A stretch of 36,390 nucleotides of DNA from Actinomycetes bacterium (GTDB taxonomy: Bacteria > Actinomycetota > Actinomycetes > Jiangellales > Jiangellaceae), in contig JAJYTA010000025.1 in NCBI GenBank assembly GCA_021793295.1, positions 1 through 36,390 on the forward strand. The letters run 5' to 3'. The position numbers were made by a program, and so were the translations under genes. This document shows, piece after piece, positions 1,745 through 26,358 of the stretch. The notes under the pieces were generated by a model. That model worked only from the letters and a program-made list of their open reading frames with translations, was not told where the DNA came from and did no database searches. Positions within the stretch are counted from its first letter, which is position 1. Every line of letters begins with the position of its first letter.

Positions 1745-4335
1745 GGCCGGGCCGCCTCCTCCATCGCCCCCGTGAGCTGGGTCGGTGCCGGCTGCTCCAA
1801 CTGTGGTCGACGTCGGTTAGCCGACGCGGTGATCGCGACCTCGGGCGGTGAGGTCTTCATCGCCTCGAAACGCTCGGGCCGTGACGGCGGCATGATCTTG
1901 ACGCGAGCGACGTTGCCCAGCGCATCACGCATCAACGCTTCACCGCGGCGCATGTCGGGCACGCCGTCAGCGCCGACCGGGCTCGTGTGCTCGGTGATGA
2001 GCGACACGAGCGACTCGTCCTCGGGGTCGAGGTCGAGCCAGCGCAAGCCGCGCTTGGCCAGCGTCTTGTCGCGGTGGCGCATGAGGATTCGGGTGGGGAT
2101 GAGTCCGCGCAGCGTCGCGTCGCCGAAATCGGCTTCAGGGTCGTGGCTGCCCAGAGCGACGGCGGCTTGGTGCTTACGGCCGTCCCGGACGAACACGGTG
2201 ATCTCGCGTTCTCCTTCGGGACTGGCGGTGACGTGGTGCGCCTCGTCCACGATGAACAGCGCCAGCTCCGAGCGGTTGTGGAAGCAGATCTGGCGTCCCA
2301 TGCTGGCCATCAGCGCGTACATCGCGCGGCCGAAGATCTTTTCGAGCTTGAGCTGCTCGAACAGGTGCGCGTGCTGGATCTCGTCGCGGTCGGGCAGCTC
2401 GAGCGTCCGCGTCCAGAACACGATGGCGCGGTCGTCGAGCTCCAGCGGAGGCAGCGACGAGTCGAAGATGACTCGGCCGAAGTCCTTTCGAGCGAAGACG
2501 TTCATCAGCCGGCCCAGCTCGTAGGCCCCGTCGAGCGTGCAACTCTCCATCAAGTGAGCGGTCAAGCTGCCGAGCCCGCGAATACCGTGCCGGCTCAAGT
2601 AGCTGACCTCGAGGACGTCGGAGAGCAGCACTCCACGATCGGACGTGGGCGAGACGTTCAGCAGCGGCGTCAGGAACGACTGCGCCACCCGCGACCCGGT
2701 CTGCCGATCGAACACCCGCAGCGGATCCATGCTCATGGTGGGTTCGGCGACTGACACGACGGTGGGGCTGGTGAGCGCTTGAGCCATGGTGACCCACTCG
2801 CCGGACTCGGTGCGGTCGAGCGCAACGAACCGCCCGCCTCGGTCGAGGGTGTCGGCGGCGATCTTCTTCAGCGCGACCGACTTCCCGGCGCCGAGCTCGC
2901 CGGCGATGGCCAGTGACCCGGACACGTCGAGGCGACTGGTCGCACCGGCCGGGTCATGGTGCACGGCACCGACCTGACCGGTCGAGATGTTGAGCGCGAG
3001 CAGGCTACCCCGGTTGTCGCCGACATCACAGGTCACGACGGGTACGGAAGCAGAGAACGAATGCGACGTGGTGATCTGGGCGAACTCGCGCACCGACTTC
3101 GACAGCGGCGCGCCGGGCAACATCGCCCACCACAGATCTTCCTGATTGCCCAGCGGATGCGTGAGCTTGAAGCCCGACGCCCCGTAGAAGGACTGCAGCT
3201 CCTTGGCCTGCTCCATGACCTCGTCACCGCTGTGCCCGGCCACACAGAAGATCGCCGTCGCCTCGACCTCGACCTCGAGGTCGTCGGACGACAGCAGAGC
3301 CTCGTACTCGGCGAGGTCGCGGGCTGAGCGCTCGATGGCGTGCATGCCTGTGCTCAGTTGGCCTTCCTGCTGTAGGAACTGGTCGTTCAGGTTCGCCACC
3401 GCTCGTCGGTTACGCGCCATGACCTCTTCGCGCGAGCGGGTGTGCAGGCGCACCGCCCAGTCGACGTCGAGCCCGGCGTCGTCGACGCGGCCCAGGTACT
3501 CGCCTCCGGGAAAGATCATTCCGTCGGCTGGGGTGTCGGCCAGCGCCAGCATGCTCTGGTACGACGCTGCGTCGGGGTGATCCGGCTGGGTGATCTTGAG
3601 GTACTTCCTGCGCAGTGGGTTCCACGACTTGAGTTGGCGACGGTCCAACTCGGCCTGAGCGCCTTCATCGATGACCGCGTCGGGCCACAGCACGCCGTGC
3701 CGTGGCGTCAAGGCCGGCTCCCGGTCCACACGGGGCTCGGGCAGGTCCATGTCGGCGTACAGTCCGCGCTGCAGCGCGTGCTGGTAGAGCCAGACCAGCT
3801 GCGCGACCGTCGCGGGCTGCGGCCGGAAGACACCCGGGATGCCCGATTCCACCTTGCGCGCCTGCTCGGCACGGATCTTCAGTTCCGCGGGCGGTACGCC
3901 ACCACGAGGTAGAGCGAGCTGGTCGCGGAAATCGTCGACCGCTGCCCGGACCGAGGCGCTCATGCCGCCGAACTTGCCGCCGTTGCGCAACGGGACGCTG
4001 AGCCAGAACGTCCGCTGCCCGAGCGAGAGCTCGTCCAGGGTTTCCAGCGTGGCCTCGCATTCCGCGGCCCACTCGGGGCAGTGTTCCAGTGGAACGTCCT
4101 GGATCATTCGCTCGACGATGGCCGCCGGATCCAGGGCCGCGCAGGTGCCCAGCAGCAACGCCTCACCCGGCAGCGACCTCAGCAGAGCCTGGTGGGCCGC
4201 GCGCACAGCGTGCTTGTCCTTGTCCGGGCGGAAGCCGTACGGCAGCGCGTTCAGGCGCCAGGTCGCCCACACTGTGCCGCCGCGTGCCCACATCATGTGA
4301 CCGGCCATCGCCCGGGCCGGGCTCCGCATCGCCAT
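1741..4335 (-). CDS. VirB4/TraC-type conjugation ATPase
   Basis: A protein of 864 residues with a Walker A motif GELGAGKS near residue 477 and a Walker B-like LALFIVDEAHH near residue 690. These lie in a C-terminal RecA-like domain preceded by a long N-terminal domain. This is the size and layout of VirB4/TraC/TrbE ATPases, which sit at the cytoplasmic face of the inner membrane and power substrate transfer or pilus assembly in type IV secretion. The start ATG overlaps the upstream stop (TGATG) and is preceded by AAAGGTGG. An internal Met pair near residues 14-15 is an alternative start but lacks such a site. It has no signal peptide or clear membrane segment. It is flanked by membrane proteins in a coupled operon, which fits a T4SS core. 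I am confident of the family and less so of the substrate (DNA or protein). Confidence 0.85.
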   Translation of the reverse strand: MAMRSPARAMAGHMMWARGGTVWATWRLNALPYGFRPDKDKHAVRAAHQALLRSLPGEALLLGTCAALDPAAIVERMIQDVPLEHCPEWAAECEATLETLDELSLGQRTFWLSVPLRNGGKFGGMSASVRAAVDDFRDQLALPRGGVPPAELKIRAEQARKVESGIPGVFRPQPATVAQLVWLYQHALQRGLYADMDLPEPRVDREPALTPRHGVLWPDAVIDEGAQAELDRRQLKSWNPLRRKYLKITQPDHPDAASYQSMLALADTPADGMIFPGGEYLGRVDDAGLDVDWAVRLHTRSREEVMARNRRAVANLNDQFLQQEGQLSTGMHAIERSARDLAEYEALLSSDDLEVEVEATAIFCVAGHSGDEVMEQAKELQSFYGASGFKLTHPLGNQEDLWWAMLPGAPLSKSVREFAQITTSHSFSASVPVVTCDVGDNRGSLLALNISTGQVGAVHHDPAGATSRLDVSGSLAIAGELGAGKSVALKKIAADTLDRGGRFVALDRTESGEWVTMAQALTSPTVVSVAEPTMSMDPLRVFDRQTGSRVAQSFLTPLLNVSPTSDRGVLLSDVLEVSYLSRHGIRGLGSLTAHLMESCTLDGAYELGRLMNVFARKDFGRVIFDSSLPPLELDDRAIVFWTRTLELPDRDEIQHAHLFEQLKLEKIFGRAMYALMASMGRQICFHNRSELALFIVDEAHHVTASPEGEREITVFVRDGRKHQAAVALGSHDPEADFGDATLRGLIPTRILMRHRDKTLAKRGLRWLDLDPEDESLVSLITEHTSPVGADGVPDMRRGEALMRDALGNVARVKIMPPSRPERFEAMKTSPPEVAITASANRRRPQLEQPAPTQLTGAMEEAARP

Positions 4336-4961
4336 CAGCGCACCACCTTTCGTCGTTCGTTGTCGTTCTGGTCGTCGACCAACGCCAACAGCGCCTGTAC
4401 GCCGCTGAGCGGCCCGGTCTGCTGCACCGGCGCCGGTTCCAGTTCGGGCTCGTCGCCGCGCTGCGCACCCCGCGATCGCTCCAGCAGTCGGCGGCGCAGC
4501 TGGTCGGACGCGCCGTCGAGTGCGAGCTCGGGGGCGGCCACCGCAGGGGTCCCCGGCGGATCACCGATGAGCACGACGACGCGATGAGTCAGCCGACGCG
4601 CTCGGCGCAGCCGGATCGGGCGACCCTGATAGCGCCCCGTCGACGGAGCTCCGATGGCCCGGAACAGCCCGATGAGTGCGTAGAACGGGTTCCGCCCGTT
4701 CATCGGGAGCCGGCCGATCAGGAACACCGCACCGAAAGCCGAGCCGAAAAGTAGGGCGAGGTTCCCGAAGAAGCCGAAGACACCCCACGTGTCGATGGAC
4801 ATGCCGCCGATGACGATGATCGTGATGGCGACGATCAGCTGCTGAACCGTGTACGGGCCACCCGGGATCTTGGTCCCGTCGGGCATGCGCCCCAGCAACT
4901 GCGGGAACTTGCGCGCCCGGGTGTAGTACTTGACGGTTTCGACGGACTCGTCGTCGGACAT
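4335..4961 (-). CDS. VirB3/PrgI-like small membrane protein
   Basis: A 208-residue protein. The first 45 residues are polar with the phrase KYYTRARKFPQLLGRMPDG. Two adjacent hydrophobic helices follow (about 44-62 and 64-83) and then a polar, Arg-rich C-terminal half. A short protein with a paired-helix hairpin immediately upstream of a VirB4-type ATPase matches the position and topology of VirB3/PrgI-family inner-membrane partners of VirB4. The start ATG has a strong GGGGAGGTGA ribosome binding site. Its stop overlaps the ATPase start. The function is inferred from topology and context; no family signature was recognised. The C-terminal half might contact the ATPase in the cytoplasm. Confidence 0.6.
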   Translation of the reverse strand: MSDDESVETVKYYTRARKFPQLLGRMPDGTKIPGGPYTVQQLIVAITIIVIGGMSIDTWGVFGFFGNLALLFGSAFGAVFLIGRLPMNGRNPFYALIGLFRAIGAPSTGRYQGRPIRLRRARRLTHRVVVLIGDPPGTPAVAAPELALDGASDQLRRRLLERSRGAQRGDEPELEPAPVQQTGPLSGVQALLALVDDQNDNERRKVVR

Positions 4962-5016: not shown

Positions 5017-5352
5017 TTACGTGAGGGGCGCGGCTGGCGAGTCGACGTACTCCACGACCGGCGCCGAGCCCGGCAGGTCTTCACCGACGGTGTCGCGCAG
5101 CGCGGTCACGTTGTAGACGATCCAGATGAAGACCCCTGCGGCCAACGCCGACACCACGATGGTTCCGACCGCGAACTTCGAGGTCACTGCTTTGAAGACC
5201 ACGAAGAGCACAGCGACGGTGATGGCGACGACCCGGAGGACTTCGCGGAGGTCACTGGCGGTGCTCGACGTCCAGTCCAGTACTCCGGCCTGGATGGTGG
5301 TAGCTGTCGCCAGGTCCGGCGCTGCTGTCGCGAGGCTGGTGACGAGGCTCAT
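5017..5352 (-). CDS. Small two-helix membrane protein (VirB2/TrbC-like candidate)
   Basis: A 111-residue protein begins at the ATG at 5352, which has AAGGAGAG at the right distance; a longer frame from 5445 would overlap the upstream gene and has no such site. The first 40 residues are mildly hydrophobic and Ala/Thr-rich. Two closely spaced hydrophobic helices follow (about 45-62 and 68-88), then an acidic, Pro-rich tail. Small two-helix proteins in T4SS operons are often VirB2/TrbC-type pilins or channel subunits, and the position between TcpC-like and VirB3-like genes agrees. No cleavable signal peptide is evident, so a structural membrane subunit rather than a processed pilin is also possible. 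Confidence 0.6.
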   Translation of the reverse strand: MSLVTSLATAAPDLATATTIQAGVLDWTSSTASDLREVLRVVAITVAVLFVVFKAVTSKFAVGTIVVSALAAGVFIWIVYNVTALRDTVGEDLPGSAPVVEYVDSPAAPLT

Positions 5353-7193: not shown

Positions 7194-8009
7194 ATGCCGA
7201 CCACGCTCAGTGACGGCGCCACCGCCGAAGCCCTACGCGACGCACCGCTCACGACGGGCGCGCGGCGACGTACGGACGCGAGTCTGGCGGGCCGGCTGAA
7301 TCACGAATGGGCTCGGCTACGCGCCGATACCGCGGCCGAGGCCACGGTGCGCCGGTGGGCACGCGAGCACGAAGCGCTGTCCGGGTGTCGCAGTCTCACC
7401 GACGTCGAGACACTGGTGCGCTCCTCGGACCGCGAACGCTGCAATCTGATCCTGCTGACGCTGGTCCGTCTGGCCCATGCCGGCGACGACCTGGCCGGAC
7501 GGACGGTCCTGCAACTGATGCTGGGCAAGGCGATCCGCATCGCCGCCTCACGCTGCGGGCTCGATACACAGCACAGCCTCGAGGAAGCCGCCATCAGCGC
7601 GCTGTGGACGGCGATCGCGACGTACCCCGTCGAGCGCCGTCCCACCAAGGTCGCGGCCAACCTGGCCATGGACACGCTGCGGGCGGTGACCGGCGAACTC
7701 GCCTATCACCGCAGTGAGACGATCCTGGGGCCTGAGACCTTCGAGGCCGTCGAAGCGCACCGGGACGACTCCGCGGACGTCGAACTGCTGCAGCTCCTCG
7801 TCTGGGCCGTCGAGCGCGGGACCGTGTCCGCAGCCGACGCCACGCTGATTCTCGACATCTACACGCCCGCGCCGGGCGAGGCAGGCGGAGCGGCGGCCGC
7901 TGAGCGGCACGGCCTGAGCTGGCCGGCGGCACGACAACGGTCGAGCCGGGCCGTGCGCAAGATCGTCCGAGCGGTCCGCGACGATTCGCCCCTGGCCCAA
8001 CCGGCCTGA
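7194..8009 (+). CDS. Sigma-factor-like DNA-binding protein
   Basis: A 271-residue soluble protein, ATG preceded by GAGGAG. The middle (about 85-170) reads like sigma-70 region 2: an alpha-helical stretch with LEEAAISALWTAIATYP, where sigma factors carry the DLxQEgxlaLwrAi motif, followed by helices with Arg. Residues about 195-262 look like a region-4 helix-turn-helix (RHGLSWPAARQRSSRAVRKI). The identity to known ECF factors is weak by eye, and conserved sigma-core residues such as the DxxQ pair are partly missing. It could therefore be a degenerate sigma factor or another helix-turn-helix regulator. It diverges from the T4SS operon and precedes the Tad operon, so a role as their local regulator is likely but inferred. 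Confidence 0.6.
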   Translation: MPTTLSDGATAEALRDAPLTTGARRRTDASLAGRLNHEWARLRADTAAEATVRRWAREHEALSGCRSLTDVETLVRSSDRERCNLILLTLVRLAHAGDDLAGRTVLQLMLGKAIRIAASRCGLDTQHSLEEAAISALWTAIATYPVERRPTKVAANLAMDTLRAVTGELAYHRSETILGPETFEAVEAHRDDSADVELLQLLVWAVERGTVSAADATLILDIYTPAPGEAGGAAAAERHGLSWPAARQRSSRAVRKIVRAVRDDSPLAQPA

Positions 8010-8080
8010 CGAACGGCTCCGACGCGGCGGGTCGCGGTCGTCGGTACGTACCTGACCGTACGCCTACCAAAAACTGACTC

Positions 8081-8188
8081 CATGCAGATCCCCATACAGA
8101 CTCCATACAGAGCCCATGCAGACTCCATACAGAGCCCATAAAACTGGGCTGCAGGCCGCATACATTCGACATACATAAGCCATGTATG
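8081..8188. repeat. Helically phased heptamer array (CATACAG-like, 11-bp spacing)
   Basis: Copies of CATRCAK begin at 8081, 8093, 8104, 8115, 8126, 8137 (CATAAAA), 8148 (GCTGCAG, degenerate), 8159 and 8170. An inverted copy ATGTATG lies at 8182-8188. Apart from one 12-bp step at the left end the starts are spaced exactly 11 bp, about one helical turn. The central part is also a 22-bp tandem repeat (8075-8096, 8097-8118, 8119-8140). All copies would lie on one face of the DNA. This is the look of an operator array or iteron/centromere-like site for a cooperatively binding protein. The adjacent RHH-like gene is the obvious candidate binder, by inference. Confidence 0.8.
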
Positions 8189-8275
8189 CCCTAAATGTCC
8201 GGGAAGCGTTCGACACGCAGCCCAGCGATATTGGCCAAGGCTTAACAATTCGCACCCTATGCGGTTGTCTCTGCT

Positions 8276-8294
8276 GTCACATACTCTGTGTGAC
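8276..8294. promoter_or_regulatory. Inverted repeat GTCACA-N7-TGTGAC upstream of the RHH-like gene
   Basis: Perfect 6-bp arms separated by seven bases, ending 49 bp before the GTG start at 8344. The central bases include a -10-like CATACT, so a bound protein could block or guide transcription start. The same half-sites recur in the 10-bp arms at 13913-13956 in the pilus operon. Confidence 0.45.
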
Positions 8295-8343: not shown

Positions 8344-8865
8344 GTGACTATCAGTAGTTCCGGCCACCGGCCGGCGCGCAGGACGGCTCACGCCGACGAT
8401 GCGCTCGCGAGCGACACCCGAGTCGAGCGGCTGCCCGCGCCGCGTCGTCCAGGAGATGTCGACGCGAGTGGCGACCCCGCCTCGGCCGTGGTCCGGCCGA
8501 GTGTGGTTCACGTTCCTGCGCCGCTACTGCCGCTGATCGCCGCCGAACGCCGCACCTCGGGGCGGTCCAATGGGCAGATCCTCATTGCTGCCATCGAGGA
8601 CGGCCACGACCACCTGGTCCGCATGCACGAAGACGCCGCGAGCATCGGCGGCCGCTTGTTCGCGGCCCGTGCGGCCAAACCCCGCTTACCCGTCGCCCAG
8701 CCGTTGTGCCCGCTCAACATCCGCCTGTACGAGCAGGACTACGAGGTCCTCGACCGGCTGGTCGCCGAGCTCGAGGTCGGCTCGCGCAGTCGGCTGGCCA
8801 CGCTGGCGCTGTCGCTGTACCTCGAGGAGACCACCACCGAACCGAATGACGACCAAACCGAATGA
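8344..8865 (+). CDS. Protein with two ribbon-helix-helix-like segments
   Basis: A 173-residue protein from the GTG at 8344, preceded by GAGGAGGG. The frame is open back to an ATG at 8182, but that lies inside the repeat array and lacks a ribosome binding site. After a polar Arg-rich N-terminus, residues about 55-100 read as a strand (VVHVPAPLLPLIA) plus two helices with a GRSNGQIL turn. Residues about 118-162 read as a strand (PLNIRLYEQDYEVL) plus helices with GSRSRLATLAL. Both patterns match the ribbon-helix-helix fold of CopG/MetJ/Arc-type DNA-binding proteins, which bind tandem short repeats. Having both halves in one chain would give a built-in pseudodimer. It is probably an autoregulator of this locus acting at the array just upstream. 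The fold call is by pattern only. Confidence 0.6.
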   Translation: MTISSSGHRPARRTAHADDALASDTRVERLPAPRRPGDVDASGDPASAVVRPSVVHVPAPLLPLIAAERRTSGRSNGQILIAAIEDGHDHLVRMHEDAASIGGRLFAARAAKPRLPVAQPLCPLNIRLYEQDYEVLDRLVAELEVGSRSRLATLALSLYLEETTTEPNDDQTE

Positions 8866-8915: not shown

Positions 8916-9617
8916 ATGAGTTCGCCCCCCACCCATCAGCCGACCCAGGACCAGCAGGACGCCCCTGACGTCGACATCCCCGAGTCCACACTGACCCCTG
9001 CGGTCGCCGCTCCGCCGAAGCAACGCCGGCGGCCCGCTGTCATCGGGCTGGGCGTCGCCCTCGTGGCAATCGGGGGTCTGGGCGCCGCCTGGCTTGCGAC
9101 GAGCGTGAGTGACACCGTGTCGGTCATCGCCGTCAACGCCGACGTGGCCCGCGGTGAAGTCATCGAGAGCAGCGATCTGACGACGGCCGACATCAACGCC
9201 GATCCCAGTCTGCGACCCATCCGGGCCTCGCGCATGGACGAGATCGTCGGCCAGCACGCCCGCAACGACCTCTCCAAGGGCACCCTGCTGACCAGCGACG
9301 CCGTAGCTGACGTCATCGTGCCCGGCGAGGGCGAAGCCATGGTCGGGGTCGCGGTCACCGCAGCCCAGTTGCCCGCTCGACCGCTGCGGCCCGGCGACAC
9401 CGTGCACATCGTCGACACGCCGAACGCGCAGGACGACCCGCCTCGAAGCACCCCGGAGTCCATCGAGGGGGTCGTCGTCGACTCCACCGTGGACGAGGAG
9501 TCCGGCCAGCGCGTCGTCGACGTCGTGGTGCCGGACAGCGACGCGAACGCCCTGGCCGCCCGGGTCGCCACCGGACGTATCGCCATCGTCTTGATGTCAC
9601 GAGAAGGGGGTGGGTGA
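8916..9617 (+). CDS. SAF-domain protein, CpaB/RcpC-like pilus assembly factor
   Basis: A 233-residue protein: about 40 polar residues, one membrane helix (about 41-63), then an outside SAF domain (about 68-205). The domain opens with VIAVNADVARGEVIESSDLT and contains a PLRPGDTVHIVDTP block, both typical of SAF/CpaB proteins. CpaB/RcpC proteins are envelope components of Tad pili thought to bind peptidoglycan or gate the pilus channel. In monoderm actinobacteria they stand in for secretin-associated parts. It is the first gene of the Tad operon and its stop overlaps the start of the TadZ-like gene. Confidence 0.8.
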   Translation: MSSPPTHQPTQDQQDAPDVDIPESTLTPAVAAPPKQRRRPAVIGLGVALVAIGGLGAAWLATSVSDTVSVIAVNADVARGEVIESSDLTTADINADPSLRPIRASRMDEIVGQHARNDLSKGTLLTSDAVADVIVPGEGEAMVGVAVTAAQLPARPLRPGDTVHIVDTPNAQDDPPRSTPESIEGVVVDSTVDEESGQRVVDVVVPDSDANALAARVATGRIAIVLMSREGGG

Positions 9618-10429
9618 TGGCAATCGTCGCCTTGACCTCTGCACGGGGCGCACCAGGGGTCACCACCAGCGCGTTGGCCATGGCCATGTTGTGGCCGCGC
9701 CCGGTGGTGCTGGTCGAGGCCGACGTCGCGGGTAGCAGCAGCATCCTGGCCGGCTACTTACGTGGCAGCGTGCCCCCCGACCGCGGGCTGGTCAGCCTCG
9801 CTGTGGCACACCGGCGTGGCGTGCTGGCCGAACGCTTCTTCGACCAGACGGTTCGGCTGATCGAGGACCGTGTTCGACTGGTCCCGGGCCTGGTCAACGC
9901 GCAGCAGGCCACCAGCATGGACCGACTGTGGTCGCCGCTGAGCATGGTGCTGGCAAGCCTCGAACGCACCGGCACCGACGTCATCGTCGACGCCGGACGG
10001 CTGGGCATGCTGCACGCGCCGATGCCACTGATCCGATCGGCGGACGCCGTCCTCCTGGTGACGCGTACGAGCTTGCCGGCGGTGAGCGCGGCGCGCGCCC
10101 GGATCGAGTCGTTGCGTACCGACCTGGTGGAGCTGGGCCAGGGCGACGACACGCTGTCGGTGCTCCTGGTCGGCGAGGGGCAGCCCTACCGGGCTCGCGA
10201 GATCCACGCGTCTCTGCGAACGCCGGTGCTGACGTCCATGGCCTGGGACCAGGCCGCCGCCGATTCTCTGAGTCACGGCGCGCCGTACGGCCGTCGTTTC
10301 GCTGCAGCACCACTGTTCCGGAGCACGAGGGTGGTCGTCGGCGCCGTCCACGAGCTCATCGATCGCCACCGAGCTCGGCTGGCTCCTGCGTCCGGAGAGA
10401 AATTGATCGAGGAGCCGACCTATGGCTGA
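9617..10429 (+). CDS. TadZ/CpaE-like MinD-family protein with degenerate P-loop
   Basis: A 270-residue soluble protein. The ATG at 9617 overlaps the previous stop; a GTG one codon upstream (9614) is possible. GAAGGGGG lies before it. The N-terminus ALTSARGAPGVTTSALAMA aligns with the ParA/MinD Walker A (KGGVGKTT) but lacks both lysines. The VVLVEADVAGSS strand matches the A' motif, and VIVDAGRLGM near residue 121 matches the Walker B region. TadZ/CpaE proteins place the pilus machine at the pole and recruit the TadA ATPase. The altered P-loop suggests nucleotide binding without efficient hydrolysis, as known for some TadZ proteins. It is placed directly before the TadA ATPase gene, which it overlaps by eight bases. 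Confidence 0.78.
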   Translation: MAIVALTSARGAPGVTTSALAMAMLWPRPVVLVEADVAGSSSILAGYLRGSVPPDRGLVSLAVAHRRGVLAERFFDQTVRLIEDRVRLVPGLVNAQQATSMDRLWSPLSMVLASLERTGTDVIVDAGRLGMLHAPMPLIRSADAVLLVTRTSLPAVSAARARIESLRTDLVELGQGDDTLSVLLVGEGQPYRAREIHASLRTPVLTSMAWDQAAADSLSHGAPYGRRFAAAPLFRSTRVVVGAVHELIDRHRARLAPASGEKLIEEPTYG

Positions 10430-12047
10430 CCAGCACAACGCAGCCGCGAACCTCGAGAACCTCCCGCTGTTCGCCGAGACCGATCCCCCTCTCGACCTCG
10501 ACGACTGGAGCGAGACGCACCCGGGCCGCGGCCCCGCACGATCGAGTCCGACCGACTTGAGACGGTCGCTGCAGGCCAAGCTCGCCTCGGCCACCACGGC
10601 GGCCCCGTCCGGCGAGCGCTCGGACAGCCAGCACGACTCCACGGCGCGCCCAGGGCTGCACGCCCGGCAACGGCCCACCGGAACCGGCGACCAGGACGCG
10701 CCACACTCCCCGAGCCGCACGGTCGGCCGGGGCGAGAACATCGACTGGGGCTTGGTCCGCGCTTACCGCGAACAAGCCGCTGACCAGCTTGCCCACGCAC
10801 TGCGCAGCCGTGAGGGCCTGGACGAAGCCGGGCGCCGCGAACTCGGCCGCAGCATCGTCGTCGAGTTGCTCGCCGACCATGCCGAGCGTGCCCTGACCCG
10901 GGGCCTGCCCATCATCACGCAGGACGAGCAGATCCAGCTCGCCGACGCCATCATGGCCGCGCTGTTCGGTCTCGGCCGCCTGCAGCCCCTCGTCGACGAC
11001 CCCGAGATCGAGAACATCGAGATCAACGGGCACGACAACGTCTACCTGATCTACAGCGACGGGCGCATCGAGGCCGGGCCACCGGTGGCCGACAGTGACG
11101 AGGAGCTCATCGAGACGCTGTCTTTCCTGGCCACCCGGACCAGTTCCAACGAGCGCCCGTTCTCACCCACCAGCCCACGCTTGCATCTGAGGCTGCGCGA
11201 CGGTTCACGGCTGGCCGCGACGGCATGGATCACCCCGCGACCGGTGGCGGTGATCCGTCGGCACCGCCTGACCGACATCGGCATCGACGACCTCGTCGAA
11301 CTCGACATGCTCAGCCCGGCGGCCGCGGCGTTCCTGGCCGCCGCCGTCCGCGCCCGCAAGAGCGTCGTCGTCTCCGGCGCGCAAGGTGCTGGGAAGACGA
11401 CGCTGGTCAGGGCGCTGACGAACGAACTCGATCCGCTCGAACGCATCGGCACCATCGAAACCGAGTACGAGCTGCACCTGCACGACATGCCGGAGCGGCA
11501 CAAGCGCATCGTGGCGTGGGAGGCCCGTCCGGGCAGCGGCGAGCGCGGACCTGACGGTCGCGCCGCAGGCGAGATCACTTTGGACGATCTCGTCTTCGAT
11601 TCGCTGCGGATGAACCTCTCCCGCCTCATCGTCGGCGAGGTCCGTGGACGTGAAGTGTTGCCCATGTTCAAGGCGATGCAGTCCGGAGCCGGATCGCTGT
11701 CCACGACGCACGCACATTCCGCACGCGCCGCCATCGAACGGTTGGTGACCTGTGCCATGGAGGCCGGCCAGCACGTCACCGAATCTTTCGCCTACCGTCA
11801 GATCGCCGAGCACATCGACCTCATCGTGCAGATCGAGCTGCAGGACGACAGCCAGGCCGGTGGGAAACGCACCCGGTACATCTCCGAGATCATCGCCATC
11901 GAACCGGGCGAGCACGGGATGCCCGCGGTCACCGACGTGTTCCGGCCGGGACCCCACGGCTTCGCCGTGCCGGGAACACCGCCGATCTGGCTGCCCGACC
12001 TCGAACGTGTCGGCTTCAACTCTCGACTACTCGACCAGGAGGGGTGA
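10422..12047 (+). CDS. TadA/CpaF-type secretion ATPase
   Basis: A 541-residue protein. About 105 N-terminal residues are low-complexity and probably disordered. A CpaF N-terminal helical domain and the conserved PLVDDPEIENIEINGHDNV block follow. The RecA-like core has Walker A GAQGAGKTT (about 319-327), an Asp-box-like IETEYELHL, Walker B RLIVGEVRG (about 402-410) and a His box STTHAHSA. These are the defining motifs of the VirB11/GspE superfamily, Tad subclade. The enzyme hydrolyses ATP at the inner membrane face to drive pilin polymerisation through TadB and TadC. The overlap with the TadZ-like gene and a 3-bp gap to tadB show one operon. Confidence 0.92.
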   Translation: MADQHNAAANLENLPLFAETDPPLDLDDWSETHPGRGPARSSPTDLRRSLQAKLASATTAAPSGERSDSQHDSTARPGLHARQRPTGTGDQDAPHSPSRTVGRGENIDWGLVRAYREQAADQLAHALRSREGLDEAGRRELGRSIVVELLADHAERALTRGLPIITQDEQIQLADAIMAALFGLGRLQPLVDDPEIENIEINGHDNVYLIYSDGRIEAGPPVADSDEELIETLSFLATRTSSNERPFSPTSPRLHLRLRDGSRLAATAWITPRPVAVIRRHRLTDIGIDDLVELDMLSPAAAAFLAAAVRARKSVVVSGAQGAGKTTLVRALTNELDPLERIGTIETEYELHLHDMPERHKRIVAWEARPGSGERGPDGRAAGEITLDDLVFDSLRMNLSRLIVGEVRGREVLPMFKAMQSGAGSLSTTHAHSARAAIERLVTCAMEAGQHVTESFAYRQIAEHIDLIVQIELQDDSQAGGKRTRYISEIIAIEPGEHGMPAVTDVFRPGPHGFAVPGTPPIWLPDLERVGFNSRLLDQEG

Positions 12048-12050
12048 GAG

Positions 12051-12968
12051 ATGTCTCCGTTCGCGGCAGCGCTGGCAGCGATCCTCGTCCTGGGTGGGTC
12101 GATGCTCATCGTCGTGGGCCTGATCCCGCGGCCTGCGCTCGCGCGCCCGAGCACGCGGAGCCAACGGATCAAGCACCGTTTCATCACCCTCACCGGAGGA
12201 CGTGACGACAAGGCGCGGCGATTCCGCCTGCTCCTCGCGATCGGTCTCGGCGTGGGCATGCTGGGCTGGCTGTTCACCGGCTGGCTGATTCTGGTCATCA
12301 TCGCGCCGGCTGCGCTGGTCGGTCTGCCGATCCTGCTCACCCCTCCGGCCAGCGCCACCCCCGTCGCCAAGCTCGAGGCCATGGAGGAGTGGACGCGGTC
12401 GCTGGCGGGCGTCCTGACCGTCGGCGTCGGCATCGAACAGGCCATCACCGCGACCATGAAGTCCAGTCCCGAGGCCATTCGTCCCGAGGTGACCACGCTC
12501 GTGGCCAGGCTCCGGGCCCGTTGGCCGACCGTGGCCGCACTCCGGGCGTTCGCCGACGACCTCGACGACGCCACCGGCGACCTGATCGCGTCGTCGCTGA
12601 TCCTCGGCGCCACCCGGCGCGGGGCCGGACTCGCCGCCGTGCTGGAGGGGCTGGCCGCGACGGTCGCTCAAGACGTGCAAGTGCGTCGCAAGATCGAGGC
12701 GGACCGCTCCAAGCCGCGGACCACCGCACGCATGGTCACCATCGTCACGCTGATCGCACTGGCGTTCATGGCGTTCAACAGCACCTACATCCAGCCTTAC
12801 GGCACGCCTGTCGGGCAGATCGTTCTGGCCGTCCTGCTCAGCTTCTACGTCCTGTGTCTGCTGTGGATGCGCCAGATCACCAAGCCCCAGCCGCTGCCGC
12901 GCATCATGGGCTGGAACCTGCGTGTTCCCGGTCAACAGGCTGAACCTGCCCCCGCGGAGGCTTCATGA
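12051..12968 (+). CDS. tadB: TadB-like inner-membrane platform protein (GspF family)
   Basis: A 305-residue protein with a GGGGTGAGAG site before the ATG. Membrane helices lie at about 5-25 and 62-95, with a last pair at about 230-280. The cytoplasmic domain between them contains the GspF-family core with LEAMEEWTRSLAGVLTVG and repeated Gly/Ala helices. TadB and TadC form the platform in the membrane on which the TadA ATPase acts. The order TadA-TadB-TadC and the four-base overlap with the next gene support the assignment. The family is clear. TadB rather than TadC follows from gene order. Confidence 0.85.
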   Translation: MSPFAAALAAILVLGGSMLIVVGLIPRPALARPSTRSQRIKHRFITLTGGRDDKARRFRLLLAIGLGVGMLGWLFTGWLILVIIAPAALVGLPILLTPPASATPVAKLEAMEEWTRSLAGVLTVGVGIEQAITATMKSSPEAIRPEVTTLVARLRARWPTVAALRAFADDLDDATGDLIASSLILGATRRGAGLAAVLEGLAATVAQDVQVRRKIEADRSKPRTTARMVTIVTLIALAFMAFNSTYIQPYGTPVGQIVLAVLLSFYVLCLLWMRQITKPQPLPRIMGWNLRVPGQQAEPAPAEAS

Positions 12969-13870
12969 ACTGGGAACTGGGAATCCTCGCAGGTGCCGTC
13001 GCGGGTCTGGGCCTCACCGTGGTCGTGCGCGAACTCGTCCCTGCGCACCCCCATCTGCGGGCCACGCTGGGCCGGCTGCATGACGATCTGCGCCCGGAGT
13101 CCCCGAAGGCGCCGGAGTCGCCGACCCGACAATCCTCGTTGTTCCAGGACCGCATCGGCCGCCTGCTCGAGCACCGGTTCCCGGCGATGGTCACCTTCCG
13201 GCTCCCTCGGCGCGAGCTCGACCTGCTGCGCATCCCCACGTATCGATACTTCGGTGAGAAAGCTCTGTGGGCGCTGCTCGGGCTGTGTTTCCCGGCGATC
13301 CTGATGCTGACGCTCGCGGTGACGGGCGTGACGCTGCCGTTCAGCGTCCCCGCCTTCGTCGGGCTCATCCTCGCCGTCGTGATGTGGTTCCTGCCGGACG
13401 TGGAGACCCGGCAGAAGGCCACCAAGGCGCGTGAGGAGTTCACCCGGGCCCTGGGTGCCTACATCGACCTCGTGGCCCTCGAACGGGCCGGCGGCGCGGG
13501 CTCGACGCAGGCCCTGGAGAACGCGGCCGAGGTCGGCGACTCCTGGGTCTTCCAACGCCTGCGCGAAGAGCTGGCCCGGGCACGCTGGTCGGGCTCCACG
13601 CCGTGGGAAGCGCTGCACATCCTTTCCCGGCAACTCGGCCTCAGCGACCTCGACGACCTGGCCGACATCATGCGCCTGTCCGGTGAGGAAGGCGCCACGG
13701 TGTATGAGAGCCTGCGTGCCCGCGCCAGCGGGTTGCGCGATGCGACACTGTCCGCCGAGCACACTCGGGCCAACGCAGACAGTGAGCGCATGGTCATGCC
13801 CGTAGCACTGCTGGGCGTGGTGTTCATGGCCCTCCTCGCAGCTCCGACGGTGATGCGTATGCTCGAATGA
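12965..13870 (+). CDS. tadC: TadC-like inner-membrane platform protein (GspF family)
   Basis: A 301-residue protein. One membrane helix lies at the N-terminus (about 5-22), a pair at about 98-140 and one at the C-terminus (about 275-295). A GspF-type helical domain spans about 150-270 (REEFTRALGAYIDLVALERAGGAG, quoted only as landmarks: REEFTRALGAY and LERAGGAG). The YIDLVALERAGG-like pattern is common to actinobacterial TadC proteins. The ATG overlaps the tadB stop (ATGA). It works with TadB as the platform for pilin extraction and polymerisation. A 122-bp gap with a long inverted repeat separates it from the pilin gene. Confidence 0.84.
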   Translation: MNWELGILAGAVAGLGLTVVVRELVPAHPHLRATLGRLHDDLRPESPKAPESPTRQSSLFQDRIGRLLEHRFPAMVTFRLPRRELDLLRIPTYRYFGEKALWALLGLCFPAILMLTLAVTGVTLPFSVPAFVGLILAVVMWFLPDVETRQKATKAREEFTRALGAYIDLVALERAGGAGSTQALENAAEVGDSWVFQRLREELARARWSGSTPWEALHILSRQLGLSDLDDLADIMRLSGEEGATVYESLRARASGLRDATLSAEHTRANADSERMVMPVALLGVVFMALLAAPTVMRMLE

Positions 13871-13912
13871 TCTTCGTCCACTCGAGCGCTCAGCCGAGAT
13901 TTCTCCAGGACT

Positions 13913-13956
13913 CCCGTCACAGGAAGCCACCTTCAGCCGCCTACAGCTGTGACGGG
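13913..13956. promoter_or_regulatory. 10-bp perfect inverted repeat between tadC and the pilin gene
   Basis: CCCGTCACAG at 13913-13922 and CTGTGACGGG at 13947-13956 are exact reverse complements, 24 bases apart. In RNA they could form a long-loop hairpin that separates expression of the assembly genes from the pilin; in DNA they could be an operator. No T-run follows. The GTCACA half-site is shared with the repeat at 8276-8294. Confidence 0.5.
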
Positions 13957-13992
13957 GTGGACAGCCCGCACCCCCCGGAAGGAACACCCAAC

Positions 13993-14193
13993 ATGCTGCA
14001 ACTCCAGACATGGATCACCGTCATGTCGGGCGAGCTGCGCGACCGCTACGCCGAAGCGCTCCGACAGCGCCCGGAACGCGGCGCGACGACGCTCGAGTAC
14101 GTCGTGATCGCCGCGGCCGTCTTCGTCGCCGCGGTGGCCCTCGTCGGCATCATCATCGGCGTCATCAACCGCGAACAGGCGAAGATCGAGTAG
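13993..14193 (+). CDS. flp: Flp-type major pilin
   Basis: A 66-residue prepilin from the ATG at 13993, with GGAAGGAAC just before it; the frame is open further upstream without a plausible start. A leader of about 30 residues ends in RPERG, followed by ATTLEYVVIAAAVFVAAV, the class IVb pilin pattern. Cleavage is expected after Gly by a TadV-type prepilin peptidase, with the conserved Glu at mature position 5 and a hydrophobic helix that packs the fibre core. The mature part is about 35 residues, as in other Flp pilins. It is the likely main subunit of the pilus made by this operon. No prepilin peptidase gene is visible in the window. Confidence 0.85.
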   Translation: MLQLQTWITVMSGELRDRYAEALRQRPERGATTLEYVVIAAAVFVAAVALVGIIIGVINREQAKIE

Positions 14194-14197
14194 CCCC

Positions 14198-14629
14198 ATG
14201 GGTACCCGACCACGAGTCCATCCACCGGCGGCGGCGCGCCGGCGCACGCGCGGAGTCGAGCGCGGCGCCGCCACGCTGGAGCTCGTGGTGATCTTCCCGG
14301 TCGTGCTGCTCATCACGTTCGGCGTGATCGAGGCGGCGCTGTGGTACCACGCTCGCAACGTCGCGCTCGCCGCGGCCGAGGAAGGCGTCCGGGTGGCCAC
14401 CGGTGACGGTGGCTCCCTCGACGCCGGCATCGGCGAGGCGAGAGACTTCGCGTTACGCGCTGGAGCCGACGACATCCTCAGCGCCGTCACCGTGGACTCC
14501 GCCGGCGACGACACCGAAGTCAGCATCACCGTCTCCGGGCACTCGCTGAGCCTGTTCCCGGGCTGGTCCGGGCACGAGGTGTCGCAAACGGCCAGCGGCC
14601 CGGTCGAGCGATTCACGATGCCGGACTGA
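14198..14629 (+). CDS. tadE: TadE-like pseudopilin
   Basis: A 143-residue protein that starts four bases after the pilin stop. A basic leader of about 22 residues ends in VERG, followed by AATLELVVIFPVVLLITFGV, the TadE prepilin signature with Glu at mature position 5. The remaining 95 residues are a small outside domain with a region of beta strands (DTEVSITVSGHSLSL). TadE-like minor pseudopilins are processed by the same peptidase as Flp and help initiate or stabilise the pilus. It could also be called TadF; the two are hard to tell apart by sequence. Confidence 0.82.
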   Translation: MGTRPRVHPPAAARRRTRGVERGAATLELVVIFPVVLLITFGVIEAALWYHARNVALAAAEEGVRVATGDGGSLDAGIGEARDFALRAGADDILSAVTVDSAGDDTEVSITVSGHSLSLFPGWSGHEVSQTASGPVERFTMPD

Positions 14630-14631
14630 TC

Positions 14632-15069
14632 ATGTGCCGCCACATCGGTTCGCCCCAACGAGGCTCCGCCACCACGGAGCTCGCGGTCGTGGCTCCGGGA
14701 CTGCTGATGATCATCGCGCTGCTCGTGATGGGCGGGCGCATCACGATCGCGGGCGGGTCGGTCGAGCATGCCGCGGCCGAGGCGGCCCGGGCCGCCTCCA
14801 TCGCGCGCACCGCGAGCGACGCCGTCGCCGCCGGCACCGCCGCGGCGCAACGGTCGCTGGAACAGCAAGGTCTGAGTTGCGTCGGCGCGCCCGCCATCAC
14901 CATCAACGCCCAGGAGTTCGCCCGGCCGCCGGGCGAACCGGCCGCCGTCTCGGCCACGGTGACGTGCGAAGTGCAGCTTTCCGACATCACCATCCCGGTG
15001 GTTCCCGGGTCGCGCACCATCACCGAAACCGTCCAGAGCCCGCTCGACACCTACCGGATGCGCCGATGA
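14632..15069 (+). CDS. Second TadE/TadF-like pseudopilin
   Basis: A 145-residue protein, ATG two bases after the previous stop. A short leader with RG then SATTELAVVAPGLLMIIALLV gives the TadE-like prepilin pattern, Glu at position 5 after the expected cleavage. Ala-rich helix (EHAAAEAARAASIARTAS) and a beta-rich C-terminal half follow, with two cysteines (SCVG, VTCEV) that could form a disulfide outside. Its stop overlaps the start of the TadG-like gene. It is a minor pseudopilin partner of the product of 14198-14629. Confidence 0.8.
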   Translation: MCRHIGSPQRGSATTELAVVAPGLLMIIALLVMGGRITIAGGSVEHAAAEAARAASIARTASDAVAAGTAAAQRSLEQQGLSCVGAPAITINAQEFARPPGEPAAVSATVTCEVQLSDITIPVVPGSRTITETVQSPLDTYRMRR

Positions 15070-15488
15070 AGACCATGAACCCGGGCGACGAACGCGGCGC
15101 GGTGGCCATCTTCGCCGTCGTCATCGTCATGGCGTTGTTCCTGGCCATCGGCCTGGTCGTCGACGGCGGCAGTCGCATCCGCGCGATGCAGCGAGCCGAC
15201 GCCCTGGCTTCCGCGGCGGCTCGAACCGGCGCCCAAGCAGTCGTCTTCGGCGGTGAAGCGGGCCATCCGACCATCGATGTCGGACCGGCGTGCCGGGCCG
15301 CGGCGGATTACCTCGTGCAAGCCGGCGTAGAACCGACCGACTGTGTCCGCGTCGACGACTCCACGCTGCGCGTCGGCGCGACCGTCTCGTACGAAAACGT
15401 CTTCCTGTCCTTGATCGGTCCGTCCACATCCCAGGTCACCGGAAGTGCCCAGGCGCGGCTCGCGCGCGGTGTAGGCGACGAACAGTGA
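15066..15488 (+). CDS. TadG-like protein (putative Flp pilus assembly protein, short)
   Basis: A 140-residue protein from the ATG at 15066, overlapping the upstream stop (ATGA). The N-terminus DERGAVAIFAVVIVMALFLAIG is the TadG/TadE-type membrane helix (landmarks DERGAVAIF and MALFLAIGLVVDGG), followed by an Ala-rich amphipathic helix (AMQRADALASAAARTGAQ) and a small outside domain with two cysteines. TadG proteins normally carry a large von Willebrand domain; this one is much shorter and matches the truncated 'Rv3660c-like/TadG-like' form common in actinobacteria. It probably acts at the pilus base. Confidence 0.75.
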   Translation: MKTMNPGDERGAVAIFAVVIVMALFLAIGLVVDGGSRIRAMQRADALASAAARTGAQAVVFGGEAGHPTIDVGPACRAAADYLVQAGVEPTDCVRVDDSTLRVGATVSYENVFLSLIGPSTSQVTGSAQARLARGVGDEQ

Positions 15489-24182: not shown

Positions 24183-25205
24183 TCAGTCCGCGGCGTCGGC
24201 GTCCTTCGTGGCCAGTTTCGGGTCGATCGTGCTGACGATGCGTTCCAGGTCGTCGATGCTCGCGAACTCGATGGTGACCTTCCCCTTGCTGCGGCCCAGG
24301 TCGACCTTCACCCGGGTGTCGAGTCTGTCGGACAACGCCGAGGCGATGTCCGACAGACGGGGTGCCATGGGCTTGGGCCCGCGTTTGGTCTTCTCTTTCG
24401 GCTGATCGGCGTCGCCGAGCGCGACGATCTCCTCGACCGTCCGCACACTCAGACCTTCGGCGACGATCCGCTGGGCGAGTCGTTCCTGCGCGGCTCCATC
24501 CGACAGGCCGAGGAGCGCCCGGGCATGGCCGGCCGAAAGCACTCCAGCCCCGACACGACGCTGGACCAGCGGTGGCAGCTTCAGCAGGCGCAGAGTGTTC
24601 GTGATCTGCGGCCGGCTGCGCTTGATCCGCACTGCCAGCTCGTCGTGTGTGCAGCCGAAATCGTCGAGGAGCTGCTGGTAGGCCGCAGCTTCCTCGAGTG
24701 GATTGAGCTCACTTCGGTGCAGGTTCTCCAGCAGCGCGTCGCGGAGCATGTCGTCGTCGCGGGTGGTCCGCACGATCGCTGGGATGGTGGCGAGGCCGGC
24801 TTCCTTGCTAGCTCGCCACCGGCGCTCACCCATGACGAGCTCATAACGACTCTCGCCCATGTCGCGGACCACGATCGGCTGCAGCAAGCCGATCTCGCGG
24901 ATGGACGATACGAGCTCGGCCATGGCGTCCTCGTCGAAGACTCGACGGGGCTGCTTCGGGTTGGGGCTGATCGAGTCCACCGCGATCTCGGCGAAGGTCG
25001 CACCTTCGACTGGAACCAGGTCCTCGTCAACACCCGTCGTTTCACGTGAAACAGCGCCACCGACCGGCGTGACGCGGGAATGACTGCGCCGGGCCGAGAC
25101 GTAGCCGTCCGAGGGTGGCTGACCGTCCACGCCTGCGTGGTTCGGCGCCTCCGTGGGGATGAGCGCTCCCAGACCCCGTCCCAGACCTCGACGTTTCTCA
25201 GCCAT
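24183..25205 (-). CDS. parB: Chromosome-partitioning protein ParB
   Basis: A 340-residue protein from the ATG at 25205, with GGGGGAG upstream and an eight-base overlap with the parA end; the frame is open to 25289. The N-terminus [17 protein letters not shown] is the ParB motif that stimulates ParA ATPase. About 80-170 hold the CTP-binding N domain with [17 protein letters not shown] and [15 protein letters not shown] helix-turn-helix (about 180-235, [15 protein letters not shown]) reads parS, and a C-terminal dimerisation domain ends the protein. ParB loads at parS, spreads as a CTP-gated clamp and organises the origin. A parS site lies inside this gene at 25039-25052. Confidence 0.95.
25039..25052. 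promoter_or_regulatory. parS: parS site inside parB
   Basis: GTTTCACGTGAAAC is the perfect 14-bp palindrome known as the Streptomyces-type parS. It encodes VSRET in the variable N-terminal linker of ParB, where it does little to the protein. Confidence 0.9.
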
Positions 25206-26358
25206 GAATCGACTCCCCCTGGACCGTCTCCGAATTGGCGCCACGTTCCGCGATCTCGCGCGCGGCTTCCAAGTACGACAGGGCACCACTGGACGCCGCG
25301 TCGTAGGTCATCACCGTTTGGCCATAGCTCGGCGCTTCGCTGATCCGTACCGAGCGTGGAATCGTCGTCCGTAGAACCGTGTCGCCGAAGTGTTGGCGCA
25401 CTTCGTCGGCTACTTGGGCCGCGAGTCTGGTGCGTCCGTCGTACATGGTCAGCATGATGGTCGACACCGCCAAATCGCGGTTCAGGTGCGCCCGCACCAT
25501 GTCGATGTTCTTGAGCAGCTGGCTCAGCCCTTCCAGCGCGTAGTACTCGCACTGGATCGGAATGAGCACCTCGTCACCGCCGACCAGCGCGTTCACCGTG
25601 AGCAGGCCGAGCGACGGCGGGCAATCGATGAGCACGTAGTCGTACGCCACCCCGTCGGTGGCCAGATGCTGATCGAGCGCCCTACGCATCCGGGACTCTC
25701 GAGCGACGAGCGACACCAGCTCGATTTCGGCGCCGGCCAGATCGATGGTCGCCGGAACACACCACAGCCCGTCGAACTCTTCGACCTTCTGAATCACGTC
25801 GGAGATCGGCGTCTCGTCGACGATGACGTCGTAGATGCTCGGAATCTCCGCGTGGTGGTCGATACCCAGGGCCGTCGACGCGTTGCCTTGCGGATCGAGA
25901 TCGATCACCAGCACCCGAAGGCCACTCACCGCCAAGGCGGCGGCGAGATTGACCGTCGTGGTCGTCTTGCCGACACCGCCTTTCTGATTGGCCACGACCA
26001 TGACTCTGGTACCCGCAGGTTTGGGCATCGGCGCGGTTCGGCGCCCTACGGCCATCAATGCGACCGCGGCTTCACGTGCGATCGGGGTATCCAGGTCGGC
26101 CAACGGCCCGGACATGGTGAAGTCGCCTAGATCCGACGCGGTCCCGGCCACGGAGTTGCTCGTCCGCTGCGCCGCACCGTCACCCGTACTCACAGATTCC
26201 TCACGCTCCAGGTTCGGCGGCGTGTCCGCCGGCTCAGTGGTCTTCCGTACCAGTGGCCAGCCCAACCCGCTCCGGCCTTCCCCCGTTGCGTCCCCGTTCG
26301 CGACGTCTCCACCTGTCACCGGCCAGCCCAGGCCCGGTGCGACAGAGGCATCGCTCAT
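25198..26358 (-). CDS. parA: Chromosome-partitioning ATPase ParA
   Basis: A 386-residue protein, ATG with GGAGGAAG upstream. A long N-terminal extension of about 115 residues has two GLGWP motifs (near residues 9 and 32) and is otherwise polar. The ParA core follows: [21 protein letters not shown] (landmark KGGVGKTT), [11 protein letters not shown] and [12 protein letters not shown], the deviant Walker A, A' and Walker B motifs. ParA moves ParB-parS complexes by ATP-driven binding to DNA. The extension is longer than in Bacillus Soj and may tether a polar partner, which is an inference. It overlaps parB and follows rsmG by two bases. Confidence 0.93.

Follow-up and report, generated by a model that had tools for sequence, protein, structure and literature searches.

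A helically phased heptamer array in front of a predicted tandem RHH gene and tad operon in Jiangellaceae

The window, a 36,390-nucleotide stretch of a Jiangellaceae chromosome (assembly GCA_021793295.1, contig JAJYTA010000025.1), carries an array of CATACAG-like heptamers spaced at 11 bp directly in front of an RHH-tad operon, and this phased array is real and far beyond chance. We consider it probable that the array is the operator of a tandem RHH protein encoded by the first gene of that operon, that the protein autoregulates the RHH-tad genes, and that protein and site descend from a ParA/RHH-centromere system. The array co-occurs with the RHH gene among relatives and is lost together with it, and plasmid relatives of the protein are paired with ParA and preceded by phased arrays of their own.

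Phased array, promoter block and genomic setting

The array lies in a 334-bp gap between a + strand gene (7194–8009) and the GTG-started gene at 8344–8865. The features of the locus are as follows.

8081–8087, + strand: outlying heptamer CATGCAG, 12 bp ahead of the phased run
8093–8188, + strand: core array of nine 11-bp registers, unit CATACAGAC.C
8214–8220, + strand: in-phase heptamer CACGCAG, at −66 from the promoter CATA
8240–8288, + strand: promoter-like block CTTAACAATTCG..CTATGCGGTTGT..GTCACATACTCT, assigned by conservation
8344–8865, + strand: predicted tandem RHH gene, 173 aa, GTG start, first gene of the tad operon
8491–8637, + strand: first RHH motif in the AlphaFold2 model (strand 50–58, helices 61–72 and 76–98)
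8704–8835, + strand: second RHH motif in the AlphaFold2 model (strand 121–129, helices 130–143 and 148–164)
8916–15488, + strand: downstream tad genes

The registers of the core array start at 8093, 8104, 8115, 8126, 8137, 8148, 8159, 8170, and 8181. CATACAG or CATGCAG occupies the first four, followed by the degenerate copies CATAAAA (8137) and GCTGCAG (8148) and by CATACAT at both 8159 and 8170; the final register reads CATGTATG, which gives CATACAT on the opposite strand and corresponds to an inverted copy, ATGTATG, at 8182. The heptamer coordinates, 11-bp spacing, 12-bp first step, and inverted copy reported in a preliminary description of this DNA were all reproduced. Its claim that the rhythm continues through the degenerate copies at 8137 and 8148 also held: CATRCAG was matched at five or more of its seven positions in all nine successive registers from 8093 to 8181, and among 1000 dinucleotide-shuffled versions of the gap the highest count was four of nine. 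The extent given there, 8081–8188, stood for the array itself and missed the copies beyond it, as the phase persists past 8188 in CACGCAG (8214), TATGCGG (8258), and CATACTC (8280), all at 0 modulo 11.

Other measures were in line with the register test. TRF assigned the array a score of 100 (8076–8140) with an alternating 22-bp pattern among its units, and self-identity was 0.55 at lag 11 versus approximately 0.25 at most other lags. The gap as a whole showed no significant Fourier power at 11 bp, which is explained by the shortness of the array and the dominance of its 5.5-bp harmonic; the suitable test here is the register test. In the 4.67-Mb genome, a pattern of three phased heptamers with three mismatches allowed was found at this single locus, the reversed control pattern had no matches, and CATRCAKNNNNCATRCAK was likewise confined to the array locus. 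A second period-11 signal (5101–5151, in the segment 5101–5300) falls within a small coding region; it was not counted as a further array and likely reflects the helix periodicity of a membrane protein.

Measured from the promoter CATA, the long run of the window spans −187 to −99, and the copy at −66 (8214) is kept. The 11-bp phase of the array reaches the conserved CATACYCT block at 8280, and TATGCGG (8258) and CATACTC (8280) of the promoter-like block both fall in phase. Relatives retain this block whether or not they have the RHH gene. A scan with the sigma-70 consensus matched nothing in it, and its assignment as a promoter is therefore by conservation only. TATGCGG and CATACCC are presumably kept in their own right as promoter elements, since they are retained in a relative, G001, that lost the RHH domains and the heptamers.

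The downstream genes encode SAF/CpaB-like, CpaE-like (labeled by position and sequence appearance only), TadA (T2SSE), and two T2SSF (TadB/TadC) proteins, together with DUF4244 pilin-like, TadE, and TadE/G-like proteins. The window is chromosomal and origin-adjacent: the tad genes are followed by parB, parA, rsmG, a jag/khpB-like gene, yidC, dnaA, dnaN, and a recF-like gene, which places the array locus approximately 17 kb from the chromosomal parAB and 22 kb from dnaA. To the left of the gap, divergent genes on the − strand encode VirB4/TcpF-like and TcpC-like T4SS proteins. The gene at 7194–8009, conserved between the T4SS-type and tad genes, encodes a product with an HTH-like appearance in its C-terminal part and no Pfam or NCBIfam match.

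The predicted RHH protein and its probable site in Jiangellaceae

The preliminary description had called the gene at 8344–8865 RHH-like, and structural prediction agreed. Profile searches gave a Pfam RHH_1 match at residues 124–160 (E 0.004, below the curated cut-off) and a weak match of the first motif to CopG. The AlphaFold2 model, built from seven orthologues, contained a beta-alpha-alpha motif twice, at residues 50–98 and 121–164, with pLDDT of approximately 85 there; the mean of 68 reflects the 48 low-confidence N-terminal residues. Among Foldseek's own candidates, a list that says nothing about other RHH partition proteins missing from it, the top fold matches were F relaxosome (TraY) chains (Z 9.0–9.5 over 92–96 residues), and VirC2 matched weakly. 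Given the two motifs and the TraY-like matches, a tandem RHH in one chain is the most likely architecture of the protein, and such a chain could recognize asymmetric sites in head-to-tail order.

These matches would also fit a TraY/VirC2-like relaxosome accessory, with the array forming part of an oriT for the neighboring T4SS. VirB4/TcpC-type genes do lie divergently upstream, and VirC1, the partner of VirC2, is a ParA-family protein, in keeping with such a role. We nevertheless regard it as unlikely: no relaxase was seen among the annotated genes here, and the array is situated directly before the RHH promoter, with a two-copy form at the same place in Jiangella. F TraY shares the predicted single-chain tandem RHH fold and is the best structural match; it has the fold of an RHH dimer in one polypeptide, and three TraY sit in a row on DNA (PMC12117103). 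TraY acts in the relaxosome at oriT, whereas no relaxosome is known for the window.

To follow the protein and its putative site together, as the preliminary description had proposed, array and gene were searched jointly in 22 genomes of the family, and the two were found to co-occur and to be lost together. The RHH protein is encoded in 13 of the 22, namely the window genome and 12 of genus g4, and the named relatives among the carriers are Jiangella. All of these 12 genomes have a heptamer pair upstream of the RHH gene, which reads CATACATGGGTCATACAG or CATACATGGGTCATACAT in 10 of them and the inverted-looking CTGTATGGGGCATGTAG or ATGTATGGGGCATGTAG in the other two (G007 and G010). In these two loci the opposite-strand pair, ATGTATG/CTGTATG...CATGTAG, is found some 76 bp ahead of the promoter CATA, a position that hardly differs from that of the other pairs. 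In every genome with an automatically located promoter block, the Jiangella pair lies at −77/−66 from the CATA of GTCACATACYCT, in phase 0 (six and seven turns upstream); inspection by eye gave the same layout at one further locus (L021). CACGCAG at 8214 of the window occupies the position of the second heptamer of the Jiangella pair.

The same RHH gene without repeats, which the preliminary description would have counted against a link, was not encountered in Jiangellaceae. That expectation stood with a restriction: the conserved state of the family is two heptamer positions and not ten, and on Rhodococcus plasmids no clear phased array accompanies the RHH gene linked to tad. The conserved −77/−66 registers could indicate that the window array expanded locally and neutrally from an ancestral operator with two copies, its copy number being meaningless, and the 22-bp alternation of units is typical of tandem duplication. 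We find this account very improbable, because the degenerate copies hold the 11-bp register over 8137–8181 and the elements at 8214, 8258, and 8280 share it.

The nearest sampled relative of the window genome, G001, is the only other sampled member of its genus and has neither of the RHH domains nor any heptamer. The approximately 100 bp that separate the two lost segments, with promoter, leader, start codon, and ribosome-binding region, are retained, as is the SAF gene that follows. Loss on both sides of a kept promoter is as expected of a binding protein and its site, and this concerted loss, albeit a single event, is the strongest evidence that the tandem RHH protein reads the array. Because G001 keeps the promoter and tad genes, a genome can have the operon without the array and the RHH gene. 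The preliminary description had further suggested an operator that switches the pilus block; an operator fits the gene order, and we saw no sign of a pilus switch.

Regulators encoded elsewhere were also weighed. The direct repeat unit of PhoP consists of seven conserved positions plus four. An operator of an OmpR/PhoB-family response regulator, bound head to tail on 11-nt units as by Streptomyces PhoP, is the best outside rival because the sites share unit length; four such units in series, plus ancillary ones, are possible (PMC7866108). It is nonetheless improbable in our judgment. The heptamer pair is restricted to the RHH-tad locus in most relatives (some also have an unrelated CATGCATATTACATGCAT-type match), and the window genome has the triple nowhere else, so that the sites form no regulon and instead track the local RHH gene. 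Moreover, the heptamers are gone exactly where the RHH gene is gone, and on plasmids phased arrays go with the RHH family, a link that would be coincidence under a response regulator. A BldC-type operator was rejected, as BldC sites are 9-bp AATT-type direct repeats (PMC5859096) and the window units are 11-bp CATACAG repeats.

ParA-linked homologues and their upstream periodicity

In a profile search that covered 394 genomes of the class, the RHH protein was detected outside the family only three times. Plasmid homologues occur on Xylanimonas pXCEL01, Cellulosimicrobium pCPRO01, and Rhodococcus linear plasmids. A distant RHH homologue directly follows parA in six loci (L079, L097, L098, L093, L105, and L106), and, as in the window, the RHH gene precedes SAF-tad genes in L079, L097, and L098. 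A Jiangella genome (G013) carries L079 as a second locus, whose gene order is window-like except that ParA is present: TcpC-like, a homologue of the 7194–8009 gene (2451–3278), a gap, ParA, RHH, SAF, CpaE-like, and TadA.

Upstream of parA, a sharp period of 11.0, 11.35, or 12.0 bp was detected in four of the five testable parA/tandem-RHH loci. L079 showed a single sharp peak at 11.00 bp (7.50 versus a shuffle maximum of 4.77). L098 also peaked at 11.00 bp, its whole-region value being barely above the shuffle maximum. The L097 peak was at 11.35 bp and not at 11.0, and TRF reported no such array there. In L106 (4545–5743 of G051:C19), the peak at 12.00 bp reached 9.65 versus a shuffle maximum of 3.43. 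No periodic signal was detected upstream of parA in L105, and no phased array was found upstream of parA in six further loci matched by the L097 ParA alone (L110–L115), which count neither for nor against the link.

Five Rhodococcus linear plasmids had a strong phased array upstream of parA, with a peak at approximately 12.0 bp (5–16) and a unit like GCGTGA or GCCGGAA. Their arrays are as follows.

L099, 3669–4581: 12.0-bp array
L100, 3906–4588: 12.0-bp array
L101, 3448–4243: 12.0-bp array
L103, 3403–4224: 12.0-bp array
L104, 3475–4268: 12.0-bp array

The gene after parA on pREL1 is a remote tandem-RHH homologue (hhalign 92.6%, E 4.6e-7). These arrays belong to a different parA/RHH pair than the tad-linked RHH gene; in Rhodococcus the RHH genes linked to tad are not preceded by a clear phased array, the period-11 peak being marginal at most (5–47 of 200 shuffles reach it). 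The motifs of different arrays agree only partly: the L098 unit (approximately CAACAGRCC) resembles the window unit CATACAGAC, and the units of the other arrays differ.

Two further observations concern the sequence of these regions. The gap of L079 at 3280–4489 (G013:C210), approximately 1.2 kb long, has an exact 11.0-bp period in very degenerate sequence with no repeats visible by eye, and looks like a cryptic centromere; a coding origin of the periodicity is unlikely, as the overlapping frames are not protein-like and the phase stays coherent at exactly 11.0 across hundreds of bp. In L098, a long (CGTGC)n microsatellite (3950–4140 of pCPRO01) lies beside the phased array.

ParA-linked homologues with arrays, and the distance of approximately 17 kb to parAB and 22 kb to dnaA, could point to a working centromere-like or anchoring site, at which the bound RHH protein contacts the chromosomal ParA and places the tad/T4SS machinery or the origin. 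This has a small chance of being correct. A parA gene is absent from the operon at the window and Jiangella tad loci, and the window genome has no dedicated L079-type ParA, the sole match being the chromosomal ParA (25198–26358) at 33% identity; these two facts make partition less likely than regulation at this locus. Jiangella, moreover, retains two heptamers only and one relative none.

The proposed operator among known systems

The locus was compared with partition systems whose RHH proteins bind repeats. Type Ib systems (omega of pSM19035, ParG of TP228, and ParB of pCXC100) have an RHH protein, an array of short repeats upstream of the operon, and a ParA partner. The corresponding parts are an RHH protein by predicted fold, for which a centromere function is putative; an upstream array in the window and plasmid relatives; and ParA in the plasmid relatives. 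Unlike type Ib proteins, the window protein is predicted to carry two RHH motifs per chain instead of forming a homodimer, and its locus lacks parA, is chromosomal, and heads tad genes. The sites of pCXC100, which is also actinobacterial, are direct repeats only (PMC5016525). The analogy to the omega repressor drawn in the preliminary description failed in detail, as omega sites are contiguous 7-bp heptads (WATCACW) with no spacer (PMC9499535) and the window units are 7+4 bp with CATACAG. The type II parC/ParR system of R1 has 11-bp direct repeats, an RHH protein, a two-repeat minimum, and autoregulation (PMC9426499; PMC5016525). However, the R1 repeats flank the promoter, whereas those of the window lie upstream and the window protein is a predicted tandem RHH. 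No actin-like ParM was found beside the window RHH gene, whose neighbors are T4SS-type and tad genes.

In the operator reading that we favor, the array would be bound by the tandem RHH protein whose gene comes next. A single polypeptide, folding like an RHH dimer, would bind per helical turn, so that copies lie side by side on the same DNA face and form a filament upstream of the RHH-tad promoter and in phase with it. This filament would autoregulate the operon, and repression or tuning is more likely than all-or-none switching. RHH centromere-binding proteins are known to double as repressors of their own operons (PMC5016525; PMC9499535); repression is not obvious here because the window array lies upstream of the core promoter and not over it. 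The origin may have been a plasmid ParA/tandem-RHH partition cassette with a phased centromere array before parA, of which the array would persist as a regulatory site in the Jiangellaceae chromosome after parA was gone. Inheritance from a plasmid, raised in the preliminary description, is plausible because the homologues are plasmid proteins paired with ParA.

A broader proposal is tentative, and we judge it nearly as likely to hold as to fail: actinobacterial ParA/tandem-RHH modules would use arrays hundreds of bp long and strongly degenerate, which conserve the period (exactly 11.0 or 12.0 bp) and not the sequence, a filament would read helical phase, and chromosomal tad loci would have inherited the ParA-less RHH/array half as a pilus regulator. 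RHH proteins on 11-bp repeats (R1), ParA with RHH (type Ib), and single-chain RHH (TraY) are known already. In the limited literature searched, we found no description of their combination, of a ParA-less chromosomal tad version, or of arrays visible only by their period.

These results tie a previously unexplained chromosomal phased repeat to a family of DNA-segregation proteins, with G001 as a natural deletion experiment in which the array disappeared along with the protein. Judging from the plasmid relatives, spectral periodicity may reveal partition sites where repeat finders fail, which would offer a simple route to cryptic centromeres. For Jiangellaceae, the locus would be a further example in which a pilus operon has come under the control of a partition-type protein.
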